Assembly (NCBI GenBank): GCA_006384855.1
Contig: VCJN01001838.1
Location: forward strand, 1-64,000
Reading direction: 5' to 3'
Length of the DNA stretch: 64,000 nt
From: Tetraselmis striata
Taxonomy: Eukaryota; Chlorophyta; Chlorodendrophyceae; Chlorodendrales; Chlorodendraceae
Shown here piece by piece: positions 9,657-34,072 of this stretch. Positions within the stretch are counted from its first letter, which is position 1; each line of letters starts with the position of its first letter. A program made the position numbers and the translations under genes. The notes under the pieces are model-generated. The model was not told the DNA's origin, did not search any database, and saw only the letters and a list, made by a program, of their open reading frames with translations.

Positions 9657-12600
9657 TCAGAGGGCCATCTCCTCCCGTAGAGCGCCCGCCCCGGGAGCGC
9701 TGACCAGCGACATGTAGCCGGTCACCGCCGCCGGCGTCCACACCGGCTCCGCCGGCAGCTGCGCCTCCAACGTGGCCGCCTGTGCAGCCGCCTCGGCACT
9801 GCCCACGGCCGTCTCCATCGCGTCCAGCAGCAGCGACGTCAGCTCCGCCGCGCTGGGCCGCACCGATGTGTCGCTGTCCCAGCACCGGTGCACAATGTCC
9901 TGCACCACACACACTCACACGACGTCAGATGATGCTTCGTACTTCGTACCACCTGCCCTATGGGGTAGCAGCATACACCGCCCAGCACCGCCGCAGCGAT
10001 TATCCCATGATATGTTGGTCGTGCGTATGGTCCATGGTTGTTATTATTACGGTAAGCTGGCTTTGGGTTGATTGCGGGATTGTTATCGTTCTGCACCCCC
10101 CCCCCCCTTTAATTCCCCGAAGAGGAGAAACATATACTTTTCTTTCAATACATCAGAATACTACACACATATGCCGACTAAAGGCTGCGGCAAAGCCGTT
10201 CATTGTGCTTCGGACTCGCGAACCCCATTGAATGTGACTTTCTGTGGGACCGCGCCTCGGGGTCCCCACGACTACCCACCGCCCACCTCGGAATATCATC
10301 TGTGGCGTTCCCATGACAGCAGGTCCTTTGCGCGCGCCGGGATGCTTACTCCGTTGTTGAATCACGGTAGTCGGCGTGCCGGCATTCCACATCATCGCAT
10401 AGTTGCAGCATGGGCCGATGCATGACATCTCGCCACCTATCGCACACTCCCCCCCCCCCCCCCCCTCTTCCCCTCTCACTCTTCCTATGTAAATTATACA
10501 CATTACCAATTTGCTCATATATAACGTGAGGATTGCGTGCGCTATCTATTAGAACGATGAGACACAGCCTGTACAATCTCCCCGAGTGCGGAAGTATATA
10601 CTCCCGAATGCGCACCGGATGCCTTGCCCTGGGGGTACAGGATCAACGACCGGCGATCACCGCGACCCGGTGGCCCCCCGCTCCCCCCCCCCCCCCCCCC
10701 CCCCCCCGGCACTCCAAAGAAGCATGCGGTAGATGATCGGGCGGGGGTGGTGTTGGGAGGGGTGACGAGCGCGGCGATGGAGGCGGGATAGGGGCAGCGG
10801 CGCACCCGGAAGCTCGCGGGCACGTAGCTCGGCACGGTCGGCCTCCAGCCAAACATCAGCTCGCGCACGCGCGGGCGGTTGGCGCTGCGGGGGCTGGTGA
10901 GGTCGTCGCCCGCGAGCAGCTCGTACATGAGGATGCCCGCCGAGTAGATGTCCATCTTGGTGGAGATCAGCCGGTCGTCGAACGCCTCGGGCGCCATGTA
11001 CACGATGTCGCCAAACACGGTGGAGGCCTCGTAGGCCTGCACGCCGCGCAGCTGGTGCGACATCCCAAAGTCCGCCATCTGTCCGGGCAGGCAGCGGGGG
11101 CAACACACGCGCCGCGCGCAGTGAGTAGCCAGCTGCCGCTGGGCGCCTCCTCGGCGCAACTTGACACTGTGTGTATATCATTATTATTACTCATTAGATT
11201 CTATTTCGCACATTGTGTATTATATGCATTTCATATTACTAACTAGGTGCGCACTGACTCGCGTGTGAAGTAAGGGATCTTACTAATTGAGTAATATTGT
11301 AATATTGTAGAGTAATAATAAAATACACTACATAACACCAAGTGCAAGAAATGACGCATATAGATACACATATGACACATATAGATACACATATTATCAT
11401 AATTGTCTATATATCTGCCACTCTTACACTCGGGTAGGTAATGCATCGTACTAGTGAATTTAGTTACAACAGTTACTACAATTACATTATATATACAACT
11501 AACGTTACATTTATTTACTACAATTTATAGTAATTAGTTCATTTACGTTGGTAAAGTATATTTAACAATATTACATACATCAAATAAAGTCAATAATATA
11601 TATCTACTGTTGATACTTGCCTTCTGTAACACTCCTTATTTATCATTCAGCTGGATGCTGGATGAATTAGAATATCAAAGATTAATAAGTCACATGCGTA
11701 CTAACGTTGCTATTCGCTCACTGCTTGCGGGCGCCACGGCCACGTCCCGCACCTTGGCCATGAACTCGCCGGGGCGCTGCACGTCCGGCTGCAGCAACAC
11801 ATTCTCTCTCTTGATGTCGCCATGCACGATGCCCGACTCGTGGAGGTACTGCAGCGCCGACGCCAGCTGCAGGAGGATCCGCGCGGAGCGCGCCAGCGCC
11901 GCGGGCGTGTCGCAGCCCAGCACGTAGCCCTGCCGTGGCGCGGGCAGCGACGGTGTCAGAGGTCAGGTCGATAATATGTTGTGAGCGATTTTATTAGTTC
12001 TTGCCGCTACGGCAAACCGCCCCGCAAAATTTCGACACATACACGGGGTGCACGAGTTCTTTTTAAAAAATAGCGCTAGATGACAGGTACTCCAATGAGA
12101 CGGCATCAGGCGCGCGACTACCTGCCCATGCTGGGCTGGTGGGTTGCGAAGTGTCACCATCGCACGCTGCTACAGCTCGTGAAAGTCGGGTAGGAAAATT
12201 GCACAAAAAGTGAAAATAATTGTATTCAAAATTATGTACTAAGAGTGATCTCGCATAATAAATAGTATTTTAACTGTTTATAGCAATTGTTAAACAGCGG
12301 GGGAAATAAAATGTAAACATAATCGAAAATCGAAGCACTGTTTTGCTTTTTTTATGCCGATTGAGTATTGAGGTGGCGATGCTGGTAGTAATTGAATGTA
12401 AGGTTTGATTAATCAGACGCGAGTAGATACACAGGTATACACATACAATAGGCGGGAAATCGTCTTAATTTTGGTAGTGCGACACTGTGTATATGTGATA
12501 TTTACGTACTTAGTATGTGATAATAAGCACGTAAAACGTAAAGTAAAGTTTGCCCCGGGACATCGGCCAAAGTCGCCCCAGCACTTGACCGCTTGCGCCA

Positions 12601-13589
12601 ACTGCAGTCGTAGGTCTGGCAAAGCCATTAGAGTGTTGCCTCGTTCGAACCCCGAAGGGCTGACCGGGCGGGTAAACCCGGGAAACGCCGGGACAATATT
12701 GCCAAAAATTCATCTACCAGGAATCGATCCCAGGACCTCAAGCACGTGTGTTACGTATGTCACCGATAATAAGCACGTCTGTTCTCCTAACAGTCGATTT
12801 TATGAATATCGGTTTGCTCGAATTGCCTTGGAAATCAGAGCGCAAATACTGGCAGCACAAGGCTCTGGGTTCGGGTTTTTGGTTTCAGCAGCAAGGGCCA
12901 TTTCAAGTCTCGCTATGTGTTCACCACATATTGTCATAGAAAAGAACGCCGTATTATTTCGTAGAAGTCCGGCTGAATCAGAATAGTCATCGGTCATCAG
13001 TCCGTAATGGTTTCTTGTACAATGGCCGTAACACTGATAAGAATGCGATTAAATATCGTCGGAAGCACTTCTCTGCATCATCCTTAATTATAAAGCAGTC
13101 GCCTCATTGAGTACTGGTGCCGGCATGGCAGGAAGGCAGCACGGGTCATCATCAGTCGCGCGCGTCATCGGCACTATGAGCCGAGAATCATCACAGATGA
13201 ACGACGAGTCAGCGACCTGAATATACATTTGTGAGACCAGTCGCAGATGTAATAAGGATTATGTGGCGACCTCCATAACCCACGCATGGCGCACCTCGTA
13301 AAAAGGATTAAGGCGGAATATCTAGCGCCATGTTCTGGATAAAAATACATAAACTGCCTCCCTACAAATAGCAATTGACTTTCGTGACCAGGCTTTGGGT
13401 TCGCTTTATATCACTGTTTTGGTACCCCCCCCCCTCCCGGACGAGCAAAATACTATAAGTATAGAACACGAATTCTGCAGATACCCCGAATCGATGTTGC
13501 CAAACAATTTGATATTCTTTGGACCTGAGAACCAAATTAAATGGTATATATGGTAATTCTGTTTGGAAGGGTGTCTCATTGTCGGCTAC

Positions 13590-13621
<32 letters not shown>

Positions 13622-15298
13622 ATGATGAGAATGATGAGAATGATGAAACCAGACGCCCCTGACAAATGACCGTGGTGTGTCGGCATGCGGCATTGCGACA
13701 GGGGCTCTAGTTGAGCGGCCGCACCTCGGGGACAGTCCTCAGGCTGCCGTGGTGCAGCATCTCCTGCGAGCGGCCACGGCACCGTACACACCATCTCAGC
13801 GGACCAACACCCAGGCTAGACGGCGCTCTGTTCGCGCGGGCGATACACAGCGTGCAAGTAGAGGGAGCGGGAGCGGGGCAGGAGCTTAGTATTCTGAAAC
13901 ATTGCTGTTTTTCTGAACTGTTTTATTGGGTTTCTGAATAATCAGATTTCTTGCTTGAAATCTAGAATAATCAGTGCGGTTTTGGTGACGAGGCTTTTCT
14001 TAGAGAGAATACAGTAACAACTATGTGTTATGACTAACAACTAGCAACTAAATGTTGCGACTTTTAAAATAAACAAAGCGTATATCTTTAATGCCCATTT
14101 ATATATATCCATGGCAAATCCCCTTTCTAAATATTGCTGTAATCTTGGGGGGAGGGGGGGATTGACGCGCACCATGACGATCCAGACTTGCTTGATTTCC
14201 TGCGGCGGGTAGCAGTCCGCGATGATGCCGTCCGGCGAAGACGCATCGCCGGGAAGCGACGCCTCCTCGGTGTCCTCCACCACACAGTACACGCGGTAGA
14301 TGTGCGTGATGTGCGGGTGGTGCAGCGCGCCCAGCACGTTGAGCTCCACGCCGCGGAACATCACCTCCCGCAGCTCCGTGGGCAGGTGCTCCAGCGAGAT
14401 GGCCTTGGCCGCCACCTCCGACCCGCGCCATGTCGCGTGCCACACCTGCACCCACGCCGGCATGGCGTCAGCCCAAGGGCGTTATGCCAATATGGGGTTG
14501 GGCGGTTATACCTAGCAAACCCTAACAGTCAATCGTTGCATAGATTCACATCCCCGTAATAAATCAGATAGTCAGCAGGCCATACCCCTGATGTATGTTT
14601 TAAAACCCTAGTCTTTGTGGACATGAGAAGTGAAACCCTAGTGTACAATAATCTACATCTAGAGGGACGGTACTCATGCAGTGCGCTAACATTCCATTGG
14701 GTTCGCGGGTCGAAAAACCAATGAATTGTTTGGCAGTATTGAGTCGGAAGATCCGTGTGGTATTCGTTGTACGTTCTGATTTATTTCGAGATACATATTG
14801 ACTTCTCTGTTCCCCCTGAGGCGCGGGGGGGAGGGGATGGGTGGGGGGGGGGAGGGGGGGTCGAGAACAGTAATTTGCCTTCAACCCAAAGCGTGATATT
14901 TGCCGCCGTCCCGCAATGCGGCGAAGCGGTAGTAAACATAGTTAACGAGTTGGTCCGCCACCTACATCGTTTTGAACAAGGCAGGTTACAAACCTCGATT
15001 CAACTCCCGGAAATTCGTTGTGTCTACACTAAACTGCATTGATTGTTCACTCCGTCAGGATGATTGGGCCCAATGATGCGACGCCCGCTTTTTTATGGAG
15101 ATTTTTCTGAATTTATATATATTGGCAAATTTGGACACACAGTGGGGCTTAATACAGTACTGCATTGTGATGCCCTTCAGCAACCCGCACTTCGTTCAAT
15201 GAAATAGATTTCATCTCTTCCCGCTGATGGCCAATGTCGCTAGATATATTCTAGGATTTTTGTGAAGATATATCAAATCCTATTTTGGTTTGACAGCC

Positions 15299-15329
<31 letters not shown>

Positions 15330-18300
15330 TCCGCTGCTGTGGTGCACCGCCTCTTGCCAAACTCACCGTGGAAGTGAAGCCGCGGCCGAGCGTTTTGTGG
15401 CACTTGATGAGGCCGAGTGCATCCGGCGAGCCCTTGATGGTCTCACGCTAGTCGGCCTGCCGGCCCGCGCCGAGGATGGCGCCAGCGCTGCTGCCTGCAT
15501 GGGCACATGCGCGCACTGTAGTACTCAGACGTGATGCTCAGATGTTGCAACCATAAATGCCAAGGCATTTGTCACACATTGCACAAACACGTTAGTCTCG
15601 TCATGAACAATACTAGGCATATGTATAGGTTCCAGGAATTACGGTAAACTACAAATGAACCGGCCGCCGTTGTGCAGCAGCAAATAGGTAATAAGCAATG
15701 GGTGGGTCGTATGTTACTGATACATTCTCGGCATGTACTATATTGTGCACACTGTAAGTTCAGCATCACCGAAACAACCACGCCTTGGGTTCCGGTATGA
15801 TAATGTTTATTTACCCCGTGAAGAGCGAAAACCTCTATTTCTCTGGAAATGTGTCGGATTATACCACGAATATAACACGGATCTTTCGACTAATTGCTGC
15901 AAAACAGTGCATAATTTTTCCGACCCGCTAATCCAATTAAGGTTAAGTGTACGGTACTTAGAGAGCACCGCGAGCGCAAGTACGAGTAGCTATCAGATAC
16001 ACGGAATTGACCGCATCTCACCGTGAGAGCTGACGGTTGTAGCGCGACCCTAGAACATTCACCCGATGTCACGAGACAGATCGCAGCTGTACTTGTACAG
16101 GTAAGTTGGAACGCAGCAGAGCTCCTGGGTCATCCTTTCGTCCAGTAAATGCATTTCGATTACAAGAAACTAGAGAGATCCGCCGTTTTCGGCACGGATT
16201 ATTCTTCGGGCCATAAAACTGCGATACTCCTGCCGGCGGTCGAGAGGGCGGAGGGCGATGGTGTGGGAGCCGTGCGCAAAGGCATGTCACAGAGGCAACG
16301 AGGCGACGTCGATCAGTCTCACCGCTGCGGTGGCTGCCGTCCGCGGACACGAAGGCTGTGGGCGGCTTTTTGACTGCGAGAGCCTTGTAGCCTTCCGTTT
16401 GCACCTAACGATCAGCGGGACGAATCAGCGCCCCCCTCCCCCCGCTCGCGGGGACACGGACATGCCAGTGGTTTCTCGGCCAAGTGCGAAGGACAGAGCA
16501 TGTGGCAGGGGTAGCGGATAACGGCGGGGTGGAGGACGGTCACCTTGCCCGTCTCCAGGCTATCGGTGTCGCTGTTGGCATCCTCTGGGGCGGCCGCGCC
16601 CTGCCGGCGTGCCCGGAGGCGGTACGCGACATAGCCCGCGCCGAGTAGAGCCGACACGGCCGCAGCGGCAGCCGCTCCCGCAATGACCGGCAGGCCAATC
16701 CCCGCTGGCGCCGCGTCTTTCGTCTCCTCCACGGCCGGCGTACTCTTTGGCGCATCAACTGCGGGGGCCGCCGTCGGCGTGTCGTCGGGCACGGCTGTGT
16801 TCTCCGGCGCGGGCCTGTGGCCGTCCAGCGCGTCCAGTGCGTTGTACGGGCAGGCCTGCGGGGTGCGCCAGGCGTGTCATGGTCAGTCCATGGTACGGGG
16901 TGGCACCGAGGGACCGGGGGCTGGAGAGTGGCAATCTGACCTTCATGATCGAATGAATGACCAATACCTTGAGGCGATTTGATGCCATCCCATATTTCAT
17001 TCGATGTGCAGAAGGTCAAACATTCCATCCACCTCCCAAGTTGGTGCGTAAGGACCGGGGCATGCACTAATTTGGTGTATATATGTCGATGCATATGACA
17101 AACTTGGGGGTATGTATGGGTTTCGGGCTGCTGGTTGCGCAGTGAATCATCGGTGACCATTCCATCCGCGAAATACTGATGCAGTATCGGCATGTATGGC
17201 ATCATACCAAGACTGCCGCGGACTGATTTGGGAATACTAAGCGAGTGCACGGATTTGGCCGCGCATCCGCGCGAGGGATGATGCTCCTATCTCACGTGGC
17301 AGGTGAGGGCTCCACTGAAGCATAGATCCCCGGATACGTACGCTGAGGACCGCTGTCTAGAAATGGACCCATCCGTGTTTTCCTGATGACACATGCGCAT
17401 TTTACTTCGATATGAGATCGGTACTTGATGCGGGCGCTTATTTCATGACGCGTGCCGGCAAGGGGGAAACGCTTGCCCGCATTGACTTTGGGGCTGCTGA
17501 TCGGCGGTTATTCGACCACAGCATTCATGCAGGCGGGGTGTGCGCCGCAGCCGACTGACCGGGATCATGGAGGAGCAACTCTTGTGGGTCGGTTTGCCCG
17601 AGTCATCATCGTAAACGAAGCAGGCCGGCCATTCCCGATCGACCTGCCCCATCAGTCGGCACTTGGCGTCCCCGCCGTAGCGGCCGGTGTTGAGGTACGC
17701 ATGCCTGCGGGAGCAGGAGCGCAGCGAGTAGCGACGCCGGGATAGTCAGTTGGCATGGGCACCATCGATCGGTGCCGGGTGGTAGAGGAAGAGGAGGGCT
17801 GGTCCTGTGTTTGGTGGGTTGTTTTTCAGAGCTGAGAAATACTTTTATCATGCGTCAAATCGAGTTCTTCAGGGCAAATGCTGCCGAAAAAGCGGACCTC
17901 AGCTCTGTAGAGTTCCACGGCATGCACTTGCGCCCATCAGGGATGGTGTCGATGGTGCCATTGTAGGCAATGTTCCACGGCAGGACGTTGGGATCGCCAA
18001 AAGTCACCCAGCTGAACTCACTCTGCAAGGGGGGGGGGGGGGGGGGGGGGGTCAAGCAGGAATAAAAAAGCAGATAGAAATAAAAGAGATTAAACAAATG
18101 TGGATTGAAAGAAAGTGGCAACAACGGAAAGGGAACTACAGGGGCGTCACGTAAAGAGATGAAATGGAGACAACAGAAGGAAATGAATAAGAACGCGAAG
18201 AACTGACAGGAATATGTAAATAAACGTGATAAAAGGAAAGGGGGGGGCCTGGGGGGCAGAGCGGGCAACTGCAAGCAAAGCCAACACTCGCGTCGCCTGT

Positions 18301-19001
18301 GGCAGGGGTCACTCAGGGACGGAACGGCCCAGAGCAGCTGCTGACCTCGTGCTGCGGCGTGCATGCCGACTGGTGGCCATCGCAGATGGGCACGTCGCAG
18401 AACTCCCATGTCACGTTGCCGGCCGCCAGGCCATCTGCGGGCACAGCCTCGACAAAGCACCACACACCTGCTCGCATGGGGGGGGGGGGGGGGGGGGGGG
18501 GACCGCTGAGACAGCGTCAACGCCTTGCCATCCGCGCGACGCGCCGCGGGCGGATTAGTTGTGGCTGCGGGGCGATGGGGTCAGTCAGCAGAGCTCAGGA
18601 GCATCACCGTATATCTTGTGGGATGGATTCCTGTTATCGTGGTGCAAACAAGCCGCACATGCCACAGTTGTCAGTGGCTGGGCATCCTCGGACAGGGACG
18701 CGGAGAGCTGTGCCGCCCACCCAGAATGGTTCACATTTCCGCAGGACACCCGTGGCACCCATTCGGGTCTTGCCAGTCACCATAGCAACGGACTGATTTG
18801 CCGCCACCAAGTCGACATTTTGCCAGCCACCGCACTGTATCCGGGCCGCATTCTGATAGATTTCAAGATAAACACAGTTCTTCCTTCTTTGCGGCCAGTC
18901 AACGGCAGGTTTTTATATGTAGGCAATTCAAAGCGTGGTGACATTGCTGGTTGAAGTGCGAAAAGGCGCATCCGCCTGTTCATTCCTGCCCAGAATGAAT
19001 C

Positions 19002-19062
<61 letters not shown>

Positions 19063-21372
19063 AGAGAGAACGAGAGAGAGAGAGACCTCGGAGCTGCAGG
19101 TAGATAGAGGGCATCACCACCTCCCAGTCGGGTGAGCAGCTAGCGCCCTATATGAACCAGGAATGCAACCCCATTCATTGAATCATAATGAATTCAACTG
19201 AGATCAATGAAGAATGCACATTTCATTTCTGAATTCATATTTCGGAACGAATTGACAAAATACTTATTCTATCTAAATGAATTCCCTCGGAGCAATTGCA
19301 AGTTGAGTGCACGCAAGGAGCGAGTACCCGGAACGGACCCCCCATCCCCTCCCCGCACACCCTGGGAGTCGCTGGTATGGTACGCACCGGCAGCGGTTGC
19401 CAGGAAAGTTGGAAGTGTCCAGGTGCTCGATGTCAAAGTCACTCCAGGGCAGGCAGGCCCGGCCGCTGAGGGAAGTGCTGACGTCGCCCGTGTACTCCCA
19501 TCCCGTGTAGGTCTGGCAGTCGCTGCGCGCCTCGGCCTCCAGCCTCTCCTCCGCCATCAGCTCCGCAGGAACACCCGGCACCAGCATCCGCCTGGCCAGC
19601 TCGGCTTCCGCCCGAAAGTGGGTGTCCATCATGCGGAGGTAATCGAACGCGTTCTCCAGCATGTAGAGCGCGCTCTGGTCGTTGTTGAGCGAGAGGGACG
19701 GCGCCGGCCAATTCATCCCCACGTCCGCATTGAAGTCGAAGCCGTCCGGGCCCCACATGTAGTCCCCGTACTTCATGATTCCCGGGAGCGAGAAGTCGTT
19801 ATAGAACCAGCTCTCCGGTACAGTCGCCAGGACCGGCGTCTGTGGCACCTCGAACACGCAGCGCCGCAGCAGCACGCCGGCGCGGCGCGGCGCCGCGGAG
19901 CCCGGCCCATCGGGCACGGTCGCGAGCTGGCGCGCCCAGGGGCTGGGGGGCACGCGCGCCGCGCCGCCCTCATCTCCAAAATCACCCTCGCACTGAAGGC
20001 CGTTAGTCTCGCCCAGGTAAGGCGCGTAGACGTCCACTGCCCACAGGCCGGACACCAGCAGCTCCTCCATCGCCAACCACACGCCGCTCACCACCAAAGA
20101 GCCCGCTGACAGCTGCTCGAAGCCGACGATGGCCGCGTCGTCGGATACCCCGCGCAGCAGGACAGGTCTGCAGGGCAGCCGCGCACACAGCACTGAGACA
20201 TGAGGAACGGTTGCACAGAGGCTGCGCTCTTCACCCCCCCCCCCCCCCCTTCCCTCTAGCAGAAGACGTAAGCTCATCTCACTATGCTTTAAGCTGAGCT
20301 CTGTATATCTATCTAATAATATATATATCTGCAAACAATACAAACCGCGAGCCGACGTATTGTCCAACGCCTTGTCACCAAGGGCAAGCAGATAGTCCGT
20401 GTTTAAATGATTATCCCTGCAGTGATCTGAGGGTAGACGCAAGAGAGGGTGCTTGAGGCTTGAGGCTCCCTGTGCTCCAGATATCATCGCCTACCCGAAC
20501 AGAGTGATGCTTCCTGATCCTCTAACACTACTCCTTATTAAGTCATACTCTACCATGTGCATTTAGCCCACATACAGTGACATGGGACACAACCAGTCGC
20601 ACACAATCCGTCATCTACCCGAGAAGCAGTACACTGGTCAGGCATGAGCTTTGTACGAGTACGAAGGCTTAATGTCAAGCACGAGTCTTACGAGTACACA
20701 CATCCCTCACGATAGGCCTTGAACAGTTGAACACGGGCTAGAGAGATAGTAGCCCGGATGTGCAACCAATCATTGGACACAATCATTCGTTGTGTCCCAT
20801 CTTGTGCATGTGTAAGTACCGAGGATTAGAAGTTCAGAAGTTCTTATCCGAACCCACCTCGGACGAGTACGCGGCCGCTGACAGAGCCTGGAATTTATGG
20901 AATGTAAGGGTGTCCGACACCAGCTGGCAGCTCGTCGACGACGTCGGCGTGGGCGTGAATCCGACGCAGCGGACCGAATTGTGATTTTGGTGGCGGCCGT
21001 GCCACGGTGGTCGTGAGTGGGAGGAGGGGGAGGGGGGGATTGCGGGGGGGGGGGGGCGGGGTGGGGGGCGTAGGCGGGGGAGGTTCACCTGGATATCGTC
21101 ACCACCACACCGTCCGGGAATCCCGCCACGCTGACGCGATCTGTCACCCACACCTCCTCCACCGTCGCGTTATGGAGCGCGGCGAGCAGCTCGCTGGAGG
21201 TTCCCACCACGACGCACCGTCCGTCGTCGATCTGCGGCGGTGATTCGGATGCCCAGGGCTCCCGCCCATACGCAGCGGAGTCGCAGGCGGGTAGCAGGGC
21301 GGCGTCGTCCCCGCCCTCCTCGGCGGCGGCGGATACCAGCAGCAGCGGCAGCAAATTAAAAAGAAGCCGCAT
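9657..21372 (-). CDS. Kringle-domain receptor-like TKL protein kinase
   Basis: Thirteen minus-strand exons keep one frame (2871 nt, 956 residues): 21372-21089, 20167-19388, 18852-18836, 18467-18346, 18022-17898, 17704-17560, 16855-16544, 15447-15367, 14445-14173, 13763-13725, 11929-11753, 11078-10806, 9899-9657. Order: signal peptide MRLLFNLLPLLLVSAAA; a beta-helix-like region to about 300; kringle-like module 1 (about 312-389: SGRACLPW, NFPGNRCR, VWCF, TWEFCDVPIC); kringle-like module 2 (about 396-493: YNGT, GRKCMPW, YLNTGRYGGDAKCR, CFVY, IP-AC); Thr/Pro/Glu stalk; membrane helix about 543-569 followed by RLRARR; kinase about 610-930. Kinase residues: LGRGFTSTV loop (third Gly replaced), EVAAK Lys 636, HGDIKREN Asp 764, DFG Asp 788, MAPE, RCWD and RPSAAEL. 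It should sit in the plasma membrane and phosphorylate Ser/Thr; the ligand is unknown. The 17-nt exon 3 and the GTCCGC donor of exon 5 are the weakest joins. Two separate genes is the main alternative. Confidence 0.8.
10681..10708 (+). repeat. Poly-C run in a kinase-gene intron
   Basis: About 28 pure C (G on the coding strand) lie in the intron between the last two kinase exons. Other pure C runs occur nearby in the same intron at about 10096-10107 and 10448-10464. True lengths are uncertain because such runs are poorly sequenced. Confidence 0.8.
12640..12790 (-). repeat. tRNA-like (SINE-like) segment in a kinase intron
   Basis: On the minus strand, CTGGG-ATCGATT-CCTGG forms a good T-arm with a B-box-like loop. 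It is followed by TAGATGA and then a T-run (about 12708-12713) that could end Pol III transcription. A loop with GTAACAC (a Val-type AAC anticodon reading) lies upstream, but the anticodon and acceptor stems do not pair. I read it as a decayed tRNA-derived SINE, not a working tRNA. Confidence 0.3.
13586..13640 (+). repeat. CTG/GAT triplet repeat in a kinase intron
   Basis: About eight CTG units are followed by GAT and GAGAAT units. They lie in the intron just downstream (on the coding strand) of the 39-nt kinase exon. Confidence 0.85.
15303..15330 (+). repeat. Poly-G run downstream of the glycine-loop exon
   Basis: About 28 G on the plus strand, C on the coding strand, begin some 35 nt past the GTGAGT donor of kinase exon 15447-15367. 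Confidence 0.8.
16323..16373 (-). other. Candidate cassette exon in the juxtamembrane region
   Basis: Between the membrane-helix exon and the glycine-loop exon, a 51-nt stretch is bounded on the coding strand by CTCGCAG and GTGAGA. It would add 17 residues in phase 0/0, rich in Ser, Pro, Arg and Ala. The frame survives with or without it, so optional use is possible. There is no homology support. Confidence 0.25.
18028..18051 (+). repeat. Poly-G run forming a C-tract before a 3' splice site
   Basis: On the coding (minus) strand this is a pure C-tract that ends in CCTTGCAG immediately before kinase-gene exon 18022-17898, where the polypyrimidine tract should be. A similar run at 18479-18501 precedes exon 18467-18346 with ATGCGAGCAG. 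Confidence 0.7.
19008..19090 (+). repeat. GA dinucleotide microsatellite
   Basis: About 25 uninterrupted GA units are followed by interrupted ones, inside the large intron between kinase-gene exons 2 and 3. Confidence 0.9.
20233..20249 (+). repeat. Poly-C run in the first large intron of the kinase gene
   Basis: A run of about 17 C lies upstream (coding sense) of exon 20167-19388. No gene is recognised in the rest of the 0.9-kb first intron (20168-21088), which also holds a G-rich stretch near 21020-21080. Confidence 0.7.
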
Positions 21373-22124
21373 TGGCCCGAAGTGACTCAATCCCGGACGA
21401 TTGACACAGGGGGCCATGCCGCCACGCGAGGTTGGCCTGGTATTAGTACAGTGGCACGCAGCGCGGCCCACGCGATTTATATGTTCGCAAGTCTTAACGA
21501 AAAAGCCCTGAACGCCACCTCTTTGGCAGCTGGCAGCCGGGCGGCGGGCCGTGCAACGTTAGCAGTAGCGACTTCACTCAGGTGTCTGTACGAAACGGGA
21601 GCAGGATTTTTTTCTCGATGGATCGGACTATCGAGTTATTTTTGAGTGGTACGCGGCCAGGCGGCCACGAAGTGCCACATTTCCGTGCTGTTCCCCTCAC
21701 GCCGTGAGAACCACTCAGCGGCACGGACGCTATATCTCGCTGACCCCCGTAGACATAGGCGTATGTGCCGTAGGGGGATTAACAGGAGCGACTAGGCACT
21801 GCTCCGGGCAGGTGAAGAGCGACACGCACACCACACCAACGGGCACGTTGTCGCTTATGGTGGCAGGCTGGCAGCGCACTGCATGGGTGTCCTTGGATTG
21901 ACCATATCGCGACCGCCAACCTCACTGCGCGACCGTAGCGACATACGCGCACTCGTACAGGGCGTACCCGCGTATCTGCTCGCGGAGACAGTAATCCTAC
22001 CCTACCAGTACCAGTACTACAGGCGTCAAAAGTAATGAACGGGTAGGTCCTAATCGTGCGCAGGCTGCAGCACGCCACACGTCGCCAAACGGATCGCTGC
22101 TGCCCTCTGGGCACATTCCTGTAT

Positions 22125-28919: not shown

Positions 28920-31900
28920 ATGATGCACCGTGCGGCGCTTCGGCTGCCGCGGTGCAGCTCGCTGGCAGCCGCCGGCCGGCCGGTGGCGCTCCGCCGGCTG
29001 CTCTGCCTCGCGGGCCGCCTCGGTAGTCCGCCGACGGCCGCCGGCGCGCCCGCGATCGTCGCGCCTCAGCCGCCCCTGCGCCCCGGACGCCCCGCGCGCT
29101 GCCCCGCGGACCTGCGTGCTCTCAGCCGCGGGGCGCAGAGGACGGGCATTGCCTCCGCCGTCTCGCCGAGCACCGAGGCGGCGGCGGCGCCCTCGGCGGG
29201 GAAAGCTGTCGACGGCGGCACTGCCGGCGGCGCCCCCAGCGGGCCGACCTTCCAGGAGGCCGTGCAACGGCTGCAGAACTACTGGGCCTCCGTGGGCTGC
29301 GCCATCTGGCTGCCGCACAACACGGAGGTCGGCGCGGGCACCATGAACCCCGCCACCTTCCTGCGCGTGCTGGGCCCCGAGCCATGGAACGTGGCGTACC
29401 CCGAGCCGTCTGTGCGGCCCGACGACAGCCGCTACGGCGACAACCCCAACCGTGTGCAGCGCCACACGCAATACCAGGTCGCGCCCCCCAGCGCTCGCCC
29501 CGTTAGCTGAGGCTGTTTGAAAGCACCCTATTCACTGCGCCAAGTGGCGAGGGGGGCACACCCTATGTTTTTGTCCTCAGGACGTATTCTTTCTTGTTTA
29601 ATTTAATTAATTGACCATGGCTTATTACTATGTGTACACGGATTGTCACGGTATATAATTCCTAACAAACATGTCGTCCACCTTTTTTGCCGTCCCAACC
29701 TCCCCCCTTCGTCCGTCCTGCAGGTCATCCTCAAGCCCGACCCCGGCAACCCGCAGGAGCTGTACCTCGGCAGCCTGGCGGCGCTGGGCATTGACACCTC
29801 GGCGCACGACGTCCGCTTTGTGGAGGACAACTGGGAGAGCCCGGTGCTGGGCGCCTGGGGGCTGGGCTGGGAGGTGTGGCTAGACGGCATGGAGGTCACG
29901 CAGTTCACGTACTTCCAGCAGGCGGGCGGACAGGCGCTGGCGGTCCCCGCGGTGGAGATCACCTACGGCCTGGAGCGCATCCTCATGTCGCTGCAGGGCG
30001 TCAGCCACTTCAAGGACATCCGCTACAACGACACCATGACGTACGGCGAGATGTTCCTGCAGAGCGAGTACGAGATGAGCGTATACAACCTGGATGAGGC
30101 GGACGTGGAGGGGCAGCGCGCGCGCTTTGACCTCTTTGTCGCGGAGGCCAACCGCATGCTGGACAAGCGGTTGCCCGTCCCCGCGTACGACCACCTGCTC
30201 AAGACCTCCCACGCCTTCAACATCCTGGACGCACGGTGACCCCCCCCCTCCCCCTCCCCCCCCCTGCCCCCGCCCCCCGTGTCTCTACCGCCCCTACTGC
30301 TCCGACCACCACAGCCTCTCGGTATGTTTCTTCTGTTCTACCAAAGGCGGCCATGGCTACTGCTGAAAAGGGAGGGCGGGCGCTGGGTGCTCGGTGCAAG
30401 CAAGGTCGGATGTGGGGATGGGCAGCATAGGGCCTTCAGGCAAGAAGAGACTGTAGGTACGGGGCGGAAGACGCCATAATGCTTTGCCATGGCCGAGTTG
30501 CATACACAGGGCGATCTCGCGTGTAGAGGGGTGCGGGGCACGCAGTGTACTGAGTGGAAGAACACTCAGAGGCTGCCCTCTTTGGGCAGCGTGTCCCTCT
30601 TTGACACACACACACGCACACGCATGCGCGCGCGAGTACATACATATATAAATACATACATACATATTCATACATACATATATATGCATGCTTATATCCA
30701 ATTATCCACGGGTACCGTCGCAGTGATAAGGCCGCTGCGAATAAGAACTTACCCTGCCTGCCAGAGTTCAAATCTAAACAAACTCGTAGCGGAACAATAG
30801 CCGGTATTCTTCATCGGCACTGGTGTTATAACTGTGATGGCATTGCCATTCCTCGGCATGCATCGACGTATGGTTTCGGGGCGGGAATGGTTTTGGAGCA
30901 GGTCTCGCTACGCAGCCGCATCCTCGTGGGCCGCTCTGTAGCGGGGATGTTCTGGCTGTGTGGGCCACCTGCCAGCCGCGAGGGAACGGCTCGCCCCCCC
31001 CCCCGCAGACCCCCCCCCCCCCCCCTTGGCGCTCCTCGCCAGGCTCGCTGGCTCTGCTGGCATGCGCAGAGCGGTGACAGGGGGGTGACGGCTGTGGGCT
31101 CGCCGCCGTGCCGCGCAGAGGCGCCATCGGCGTGACGGAGCGCGCCAAGTGCTTTGCGGACATGCGCGCACTGGCGCGGCGGGTGACGCAGCTGTGGGGC
31201 GAGCGGCGCGAGGAGCAGGGGTACCCGCTGGGCACGGTGACGCAGCCGGCGGAGGCTACGCCGTGCGCGCCCGAGCCCGCGGCGCTGCCGCCCAAGGGCG
31301 GCTCGGCGCCCTTTGTGCTGGAGATCGGCAGCGAGGAGCTGCCGCCCGCGGACGTGGAGTCGGCCATGGCGCAGCTGCGCGCCGCGGTGCCGGCGCTGCT
31401 GGCGGAGCTGCGCCTCGCGCACGGCGGCGTGGCGGTTGAGGGCACGCCGCGCCGGCTGGTGGTGAGCGTGGCGGGGCTGACGGCGTTCACGGAGGACGTG
31501 GAGGAGCGGCTGCGGGGGCCGCCGGCCAAGGCGGCCTTCAAGGACGGCGCGCCCACCAAGGCGCTGGAGGGCTTTGCGCGCAAGAACGGCGTGGACCCCG
31601 CCGACGTCGTCGTGGAGGCGGACGCCAAGGGCGTGGAGTACTGCTACGCGACGGTGGCCACGCCGGGGCGGCCCGCCGCCGAGGCGCTCGCGGCCGCGCT
31701 CGGCGACCTCGTGCGCGGGCTGTCCTTCAAGAAGAGCATGCGCTGGAACGGGGCGCTCGCGTACAGCCGCCCGCTGCGCTGGGTGCTCGCCATGCACGGG
31801 GCCGCCACGGTGCCGCTGGCGGTGGGCGACCTCACGGGCGGCGCGACCACGCGGCTCCTGCGCAACGCCGCGGAGACGGAGGCGACGCTCGCGGACGCGG

Positions 31901-34072
31901 GCGAGTACGGCAACGTCATGCGGGCGGCCGGTATCCAGGTGACCGCCGACCACCCCTCCAACCCCCATCACCCTGCGAAAAGCGAGTCCGCTTGTGGCCG
32001 CAACCACCGCCTCTGTTGCACCTACGAGCGCCTGCGCGGCATTAATACCGCTGCGAAGGAGGACCTGCTCCACCCGCCAGAAGTCGAATTGAGACGAAAG
32101 CATTGCGGAACTACAGCGAGTGTTCTTACTGGTTGCACGCGAGCCCAATCCGAGGCTTGCAATAAGGGTTACTACAGGTGCGCCGGCATGCGTGGCTTCC
32201 GAGTACCGCCAGAGCTATGCGCTACGTTTCATGTTCCATGCAGCGGTGCATTGCAGTGCTGCAGTGTCTGTACGGCGACTATTTGTCCCGTGGTCTTGCG
32301 CCAGCGTTTATAGTGCGCTTGCAAGCTTGTCCTCATCGCAGCGGTAACAAAACGCGGCGCTTAACTTGTAGTCATATTACACGGCACCATTCCACAACTT
32401 CATCTGGCATGTGTCGCGGCAAGCACGAGCAATAGACTCGTCTGCAAACAGACGGATAATGATGACGACGCATACGATGATGGCGACAAAGCGTCGGCAG
32501 CATCGGCCGTGTCGCAGTATGGCGGCGCAGCGCGACTTGGTTGCCCATAGGATACACCGGTCCATAAATTTCATGTACCCGACTGACCGTATTTGTCCGT
32601 GTCGGGGCTTTCGGCCACTTAACCCCCTGTTCCAGGTAGACTTTGAGGCGCGAAAGGCAGGTATATGGAGCGCGGTCCGGGAGGCTGCCGAGGAGGTCGG
32701 TGGCGTGGTGCCGGAGAGCAACGCGGAGGACTTGCTGCTGGAGGTGGCCAACCTGGTGGAGGCGCCCACGGTGGTGCGCGGCACCTTCGACGCGTCCTTC
32801 CTCAAGCTGCCGCGCGAGCTGCTGGTGATGGTGATGCGCAAGCACCAGCGCTACTTCCCCGTGACCGACCCCGCGACCGGCGACCTCATGCCCTACTTCG
32901 TGACCGTCGCCAACGGGCCCATCGACCCGCCAAGCGTCGCCGCGGGCAACGAGGCAGTGCTGCGCGCGCGCTTTGAGGACGCCGTGTTTTTCTACGACTC
33001 GGACCTGGAGAAGACGCTGGACGATTTCAAGCCAGCGCTCGCGGGGACCATGTTCCAGGCCGACCTCGGCACGCTCTTGGACAAGACGACGCGGGTGGAG
33101 GCGCTCGTCGAGCCGCTGGCGGCCCTGGTGGGCTTCGGCGACGCGGCGCCCGCCGCGCTGCGCGCCGCCGGGCTCGCAAAGGCGGACCTAGCGACGTCGA
33201 CGGTGATGGAAATGACGGCGCTGGCGGGCGTCATGGGTCGGCACTACGCCACGCTGGCCGGCGAGCCCGAAGAGGTGGCCACCGCCATCTGGGAGGCCGT
33301 CCTGCCACGTTACGCGGGCGACGAGCTGCCGGCCTCGCCGGCGGGCATCCTGGTCTCGGTTGCGGACAGACTGGACAGCCTTGTCGGCCTGGTGGCCGCC
33401 GGCTGCGCGCCTACCGCCAACACCGACCCCTACGCGCTTCGCCGCACGGCGTACGCGATGCTGCAGACGCTGGTCGGCAACGGCGTGCGCCTCGACCTGC
33501 GCGCCGCGGCGGCGGAGGCCGCGGCGAAGCAGCCGCTAACAGTTGGCGAAGACGTGCTGGTTAGCGCGCTTGAGTTTGTCGAGCGCCGACTCGAGCAGCT
33601 CCTGCTCGACCGCGGCCTGCCAGCGCAGGCGGTGCGCGCCGCGCTGGCCGAGCGTGGCTCGGACCCCGCGCTCGCGGCCGAGACAGCGACGGAGCTGGCT
33701 GCGGCGATGGCCGACGAGGCCGGGTCGGGGCTGGGCAAGGTCATGACCGCGCTGGCGCGCCCCATCCGCATTATCCGCGGCAAGGACGTCAACCCGGACA
33801 TCCTCGTCAACCCCGAGCTGTTCGAGCTCGACGAAGAGCGCGCGCTGTGGGAGGCGTTCGGCACAGCCTCGGCCGCGTTGTCCTCCGGCATGAGCGTCCC
33901 CGACTTCCTCGCGGCCACCAATCCACTTATCGCGCCCGTCGACGCCTTCTTCGACAAAGTCTTCGTCATGGCCGAGGACCCGGCGGTGCGCGCCAACCGG
34001 CTCGCGCTGCTGCAGCAGGTGGCTTCCCTGCAGGATGGCGTCGTCGACTTCAGCCAGCTGCCAGGCTTTTGA
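28920..34072 (+). CDS. Organellar glycyl-tRNA synthetase, fused alpha-beta type
   Basis: Four exons, 28920-29477, 29724-30235, 31119-31938 and 32636-34072, with intron phases 0, 2 and 0, encode 1108 residues. The enzyme charges tRNA-Gly in plastid and probably mitochondrion, and is the bacterial-type alpha and beta subunits joined in one chain, as in plant EDD1. Seen: a long Arg/Ala transit peptide (about 1-110); alpha core with [49 protein letters not shown] and EITYGLERI (class II motifs), ending [12 protein letters not shown] across the phase-2 intron; then beta with [49 protein letters not shown] and the C-terminal helical anticodon-binding region. The length is close to plant homologues. 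Intron 2 (883 nt) carries C runs and a CA/TACA microsatellite. TGTAA follows at 34167. Confidence 0.95.
30605..30700 (+). repeat. CA and CATA microsatellite in GlyRS intron 2
   Basis: ACAC, GCGC and TACA/CATA units form a compound low-complexity tract inside the second intron. A separate C-rich run (about 31008-31024) lies nearer the acceptor. Confidence 0.85.

Follow-up and report, generated by a model that had tools for sequence, protein, structure and literature searches.

In animals, membrane kinases with kringle modules are known from the ROR receptors and from those MuSK receptors that have a kringle. Tyrosine kinases carry a catalytic loop of the HRDLAARN type, and the D-x-K-x-x-N loop is the form seen in Ser/Thr kinases. 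In the kringles of plasminogen, an acidic D-x-D pair that follows the CRNP motif is part of the lysine-binding site. One table of domains labels the kringle 'Euk', that is, not animal-only (PMC2394772). Receptor-like kinases (RLKs) are patchy in chlorophytes, being present in 9 of the 18 examined according to the count given in PMC10868138. Here, we describe a gene of the unicellular green alga Tetraselmis striata whose deduced protein places a kringle-bearing N-terminal half ahead of a membrane helix and a kinase. The window, as the term is used below, is the whole stretch of DNA that was analyzed, 64,000 nucleotides of contig VCJN01001838.1 (positions 1 to 64,000) in GenBank assembly GCA_006384855.1. 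Comparison of its sequence with the rest of the genome makes it very probable that the window gene belongs to a small family of Tetraselmis receptor-like kinases that cross the membrane once, each with a kringle ectodomain and a Ser/Thr-type kinase. A first-pass annotation of this DNA had proposed that a green-algal gene with kringle, membrane helix, and non-tyrosine-type kinase was undescribed, and the literature searched agrees: the titles and opening lines of abstracts on kringles in algae and protists contain no description of an algal kringle receptor.

By its open reading frames and exons, the minus strand from 21417 to 9657 reads as a single receptor-kinase gene, with the modules in the order hydrophobic start, N-terminal domain, two kringle modules, membrane helix, and kinase. 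The first-pass annotation had joined 13 exons into one frame; all 13 exons were located where it had placed them, and the in-frame join itself failed. Within kringle 1, where 19388 is joined to 18467, the frame is lost, because exon 2 stops two bases into a codon and the exon that follows in that model needs one base; an in-frame TAG is present at 15450-15448 besides. A 23-nt microexon that the 13-exon model had missed accounts for this break. It lies at 18630-18608, is flanked by an acceptor AG and a donor GT, and reads (C)RNPSHKIYG(VWCF). The closest relative of the gene, TSEL_020007 (P0001; JGI Tetstr1 430176), is an annotated protein of 1059 residues with kringle and kinase, assigned to T. 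striata by its database label. At the site of the window frame break TSEL_020007 reads CRNPSYDIQGVWCF, and the window microexon supplies the matching RNPSHKIYG. Mini-exon candidates counted in intron 2 number 22, and from a wider list only 18630-18608 resembled the sister protein when compared by eye.

The corrected gene has 14 exons and a coding sequence of 3051 nt that ends with TGA, and GT-AG borders are found at all 13 introns. Its reading comprises 1016 codons, one of which, the TAG at codon 655, is an internal stop. A 17-exon model produced by spliced alignment was also considered; its far-upstream first exons (21884-21653) and shortened third exon were rejected, as were its split of exon 7 and the GC donor that it gave to exon 8, and the GT-AG model was retained. 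Intron 8 contains a dispersed repeat (15775-15959) with at least 36 other places in the genome at 70-84% identity, from 40 scored candidates out of 82. The neighbors of the gene in the window encode a chlorophyll a/b-binding protein, an FAD enzyme, a glycyl-tRNA synthetase, and an FKBP; the synthetase (29607-34069) has bacterial-type alpha and beta domains that adjoin, like a fused organellar enzyme.

Exon 1 (21089-21417; this and all following exons are on the minus strand) begins at the ATG at 21417 or at an in-frame ATG at 21372, and encodes a hydrophobic leader and the start of the N-terminal domain. The leader, a putative signal peptide by its hydropathy, occupies residues 18-32 with a mean of 2.21 over 15 residues and 1.55 over 19, and similar hydrophobic leaders stand at the starts of the sister copies. 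Exon 2 (19388-20167) continues the N-terminal domain and encodes the first half of kringle 1. The N-terminal domain, which comprises about 260 residues ahead of kringle 1, has no match to a Pfam family, and a PDB search with its counterpart from TSEL_020007 returned one chance match only. At another family locus, C1793, this domain has a weak match to Pectate_lyase_5 (E 0.14, 12.7 bits vs a cut-off of 24.3). The beta-helix-like region of the first-pass annotation was not confirmed, as the window domain has no substantial match in Pfam or the PDB, and the beta-helix label is kept here as a suggestion.

Kringle 1 is encoded by exons 2-4 (18382-19518) and is completed by the microexon, exon 3 (18608-18630). 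Its end and the start of kringle 2 share exon 4 (18346-18467). Parts of kringle 2 follow in exons 5 (17898-18022) and 6 (17560-17704), and its last cysteine is in exon 7, so that this degenerate second module spans exons 4-7 (16850-18363). Both modules have six cysteines, at residues 327, 348, 369, 381, 401, and 406 in kringle 1 and at 413, 451, 475, 488, 503, and 510 in kringle 2, and these are in register in the window and in three further copies (C1418, C443, and C1756, introduced below). With the microexon, kringle 1 scores 40.6 bits against the Pfam kringle family PF00051, above its curated cut-off of 34.3 bits; without the microexon it scores 26.2 bits, below the cut-off. The whole TSEL_020007 protein scores 49.6 bits, and kringle 1 scored alone gives 42.8 bits in TSEL_020007, 43.3 in C1756, 46.3 in C1793, and 45.2 in C1077, all above 34.3. 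The borders of the C1077 and C1793 kringles are provisional, since these modules were pieced together from their exons by eye.

Kringle 2 of the window reaches 17.0 bits, below the cut-off. The second module was scored in the window, C1077, C1793, and TSEL_020007, the last three giving 48.8, 28.8, and 23.1 bits, and among those scored only C1077 exceeds the cut-off. Two kringle modules of equal standing had been claimed for the joined protein. The profile check bears out the first, which also matches kringles in the PDB, and does not place the second on the same level. When the window kringle pair (187 residues) was compared with the PDB, kringles of plasminogen, HGF, angiostatin, ROR2, prothrombin, and ROR1 ranked first among the best 60 of 82 distinct sequences, and in three PDB kringle alignments the cysteines and the CRNP, WC, and CD-P-C motifs matched column by column. 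The residues that follow CRNP are S-H-K in the window, S-Y-D in TSEL_020007, S-Y-N in C1756, S-D-H in C1077, and G-D-H in C1793. Since the acidic pair is absent after CRNP, window kringle 1 is unlikely to have a classical lysine-binding site or to bind lysine as plasminogen does.

Exon 7 (16544-16855) carries, after the last kringle 2 cysteine, a linker and the membrane helix (about 16702-16628). The sole 19-residue stretch with a mean hydropathy above 1.6 starts at residues 556-567, and this single hydrophobic stretch of the membrane type agrees with the one membrane helix that had been predicted ahead of the kinase. Exon 8 (16323-16404) encodes a juxtamembrane segment, and exon 9 (15367-15494) the end of that segment and the glycine-rich loop of the kinase, together with the in-frame TAG (15448-15450).

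The protein kinase domain extends over exons 9-14 (9828-15411). Exon 10 (14173-14445) encodes the N-lobe with the VAAK lysine, exon 11 (13725-13763) is 39 nt long and contributes EMLHHGSLRTVPE, exon 12 (11753-11929) has the catalytic loop HGDIKREN, exon 13 (10806-11078) has the DFG and APE motifs, and exon 14 (9657-9899) encodes the end of the domain, the tail, and the terminal TGA. The full kinase domain of the first-pass annotation is borne out by Pfam scores above 120 bits (Pkinase 128.4 and PK_Tyr_Ser-Thr 121.7) and by the retention of the catalytic lysine in VAAKAI, HGD in HGDIKREN, DFG, and APE. The catalytic loop of the window kinase is of the form D-x-K-x-x-N, with HGD in place of HRD, and no tyrosine-kinase-type catalytic loop was found in this kinase; the loops of the sisters read HGDIKREN, HGDLKREN, HGDLKCEN, and HADLKLDN.

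The PDB was searched with a profile built from five kinases of the family, of which two were partial readings. Among the best 60 of 805 matches, an EGFR construct scores 119.1 bits, the plant TKL kinase CTR1, in second place, 115.6, STK33 114.0, PAK1 106.6, FAK 106.5, and SYK 104.7; for TSEL_020007 searched alone, PAK1 is first with 80.7 bits. A TKL-like assignment of the window kinase is plausible on these scores, with PAK, FAK, and SYK scoring nearly as high. A search of NCBIfam returned kinase-type families alone, all far below their cut-offs. In a protein database search with the kinase, the next match after TSEL_020007 had 28% identity across 53% of the domain, among the best 120 of 193 matches.

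TSEL_020007 was the sole close relative in the protein database by a word-based search of proteins of 0.55-1.75 times the query length, in which the ectodomain search covered the best 8000 candidates. It is identical to the window protein at 582 of 1033 aligned positions, gaps included. The two agree in architecture, in the microexon, and in most of their exon layout, and their kinases are 82% identical; TSEL_020007 differs from the window protein in its intact frame, a longer N-terminal insert, a longer tail, and an N-terminal domain that is about 54% identical. The gene of TSEL_020007 is the copy on contig C1418 of the same assembly, where a 15-exon spliced-alignment model translates to an identical protein (1059/1059 residues); the source of the assembly is therefore T. 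striata or a very close strain. A further copy at C443 is identical to TSEL_020007 at 1033 of 1059 aligned residues, differs most in the tail, and is probably the other haplotype of the C1418 locus.

A census of the family, in which TSEL_020007 and kringle-reading queries were compared with the whole 224-Mb assembly, gave six copies at five loci: C1482 (the window), C1418 with C443, C1756, C1077, and C1793. Outside these loci, the kringle queries found matches in the genome at E ≥ 0.25 only. At all five, kringles precede the kinase on the same strand, and at C1077 and C1793 a hydrophobic segment, recognized by eye, lies between the kringles and the kinase exons. The spliced alignments of these two loci are poor outside the matches, with one to five frameshift steps and stops. 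Over the stretch that begins with the kringle 1 microexon and includes the kinase, the window, C1418, C443, and C1756 have largely the same exon sizes and phases. The microexon has 23 nt in these four copies; its counterpart has 20 nt in C1793 and is fused to the neighboring exon in C1077. The C1756 copy (C1756:221047-220276), a distinct paralog, has one frameshift in exon 2, and its kringle and kinase exons are otherwise open.

A Pfam kringle search of the whole genome detected none of the copies of this family, because their kringles are split by introns; introns and a microexon within a module can thus conceal a domain from such a search. The only matches of that search were four Pfam kringles of 38.8-86.1 bits at C2483:32350-35035. 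They belong to a repeat protein whose reading frames are long and open and whose repeats are of the GGD/GGN type, and no kinase was present in the frames examined.

Codon 655 is TAG in the window and Trp in C1418, C443, and C1756, a single TGG-to-TAG difference. Because the TAG precedes the kinase, the window copy as assembled would yield a membrane-anchored ectodomain only. Selection was measured along the gene as dN/dS (NG86). Between the window and C1418, the whole gene gives 0.42, the kinase 0.28, and the part after the TAG 0.35; the corresponding values between the window and C1756 are 0.29, 0.20, and 0.23. Constraint is weak in two segments of the window-C1418 comparison, from the linker to the juxtamembrane segment (0.61) and in the tail (0.60). 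Nonsynonymous and synonymous changes at private kinase codons number 15/14 in the window, 15/14 in C1418, and 20/42 in C1756. The purifying dN/dS and the equal private counts of the window and C1418 indicate that the window kinase was constrained until recently. The window kinase shows no relaxed constraint, and its TAG is recent, bypassed, or an assembly error. Between the window and C1418, dN is about threefold higher in the N-terminal domain than in the kinase (0.355 vs 0.108). Faster dN is common in the ligand-facing parts of proteins; the N-terminal dS is also higher, 0.85 vs 0.38 in the kinase (9828-15411). The lower kinase dS may reflect gene conversion between paralogs.

That the TAG is an error of assembly or base calling, or one allele of a polymorphism, and that the living alga has an intact window gene, is a real possibility, one we hold at somewhat below even chances. 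The lesion is a single base in an otherwise clean coding signal, and C1756 likewise has one lesion, its exon 2 frameshift, as is expected with residual assembly errors. One lesion in each of two genes that are clean elsewhere is compatible with errors of assembly or with pseudogenes of very recent origin. The window copy may, more doubtfully, be a recent pseudogene that has lost its kinase by the TAG, and possibly its mRNA by nonsense-mediated decay, with the live members of the family elsewhere. Trp at the same codon in three sister copies speaks for such a loss, and searches with parts of the gene found in the assembly no second copy of the window locus that could carry the Trp allele. Against it stand a frame with no other internal stop in its 1016 codons, the GT-AG borders of all 13 introns, and private kinase changes that equal those on the branch of the intact C1418 gene. 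An alternative genetic code for TAG was ruled out, as the sister gene has no internal stops by the standard code and Trp at this site.

It is very unlikely that the TAG is bypassed by splicing, exon 7 being joined to the AG within the TAG with exon 8 skipped and the frame and kinase kept. Exon 7 does end in phase 0, and the sequence after the TAG is computed to resume the kinase frame as LETGK|RETIKG, but the acceptor context, ggcaggccgactag, lacks a pyrimidine tract, and the skipping of exon 8 is required as well. On another view, two neighboring genes were misjoined, one for a secreted kringle protein at 21.4-17.5 kb and one for a kinase at 16.9-9.6 kb. The 704 nt of intron 6 (17559-16856) speak for this view, which is scarcely tenable: TSEL_020007 is annotated as a single protein across the whole architecture, order and strand are repeated at five loci, at two of which the kinases are only 36-37% identical to that of the window, and exon 7 holds both the last kringle 2 cysteine and the membrane helix, and the single annotated protein and the order at five loci therefore disfavor separate genes.

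The modules, the catalytic motifs, and purifying selection (in the window, C1418/C443, and C1756) are read from the sequences, as is the module order at the five loci, and a receptor function, inferred from such domains, is the best-supported reading of the family. By domain logic, the N-terminal domain and the two kringles would be secreted to the outside of the cell and bind a ligand, the single helix would span the membrane, and the cytoplasmic Ser/Thr-type kinase would relay the signal by phosphorylation. A broader proposal goes further: chlorodendrophyte kringle receptors would be diversifying, independent of those of animals, with Ser/Thr signaling, and the window locus, through the single TAG between membrane helix and kinase, would encode either a decoy that is anchored in the membrane and lacks the kinase or a splice-switched isoform, the TAG also offering an in-frame alternative splice acceptor. 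We consider this proposal unlikely. The receptor reading of the family would provide a concrete, testable surface receptor in a group whose receptor kinases are, by the account in PMC10868138, few and patchy. If a family of five loci in a unicellular green alga has this layout with another kinase type, the same receptor layout would have arisen at least twice.

Among described systems, ROR and the kringle-bearing MuSK receptors are alike to the window gene in their kringle outside, one membrane helix, and kinase inside, and the ROR2 kringle ranks with the leading PDB matches of window kringle 1. They differ in that the window gene is without Ig or Frizzled domains, has the Ser/Thr-like loop HGDIKREN, contains two kringle modules instead of one, and has introns that cut within these modules. 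Pfam scans to E 10 of the window protein and TSEL_020007 returned no Ig or Frizzled match and gave kringle and kinase-type families only, apart from one chance match in the window protein (Formyl_trans_C_2, E 0.31). Since the kinase loop is of the Ser/Thr type, the likeness to ROR and MuSK is architectural, and we infer that the layout probably arose independently of these animal receptors, because the kinase type differs and Ig and Frizzled are missing. The kringles of plasminogen and HGF share with a window kringle the six cysteines and the CRNP and WCF motifs; the window gene differs from these proteins in having no protease domain by Pfam and no acidic lysine-binding pair in kringle 1. Plant and chlorophyte RLKs resemble the window gene in their sequence of ectodomain, membrane helix, and Ser/Thr-type kinase, whereas the ectodomain of the window gene is built of kringles rather than of LRR or lectin domains.
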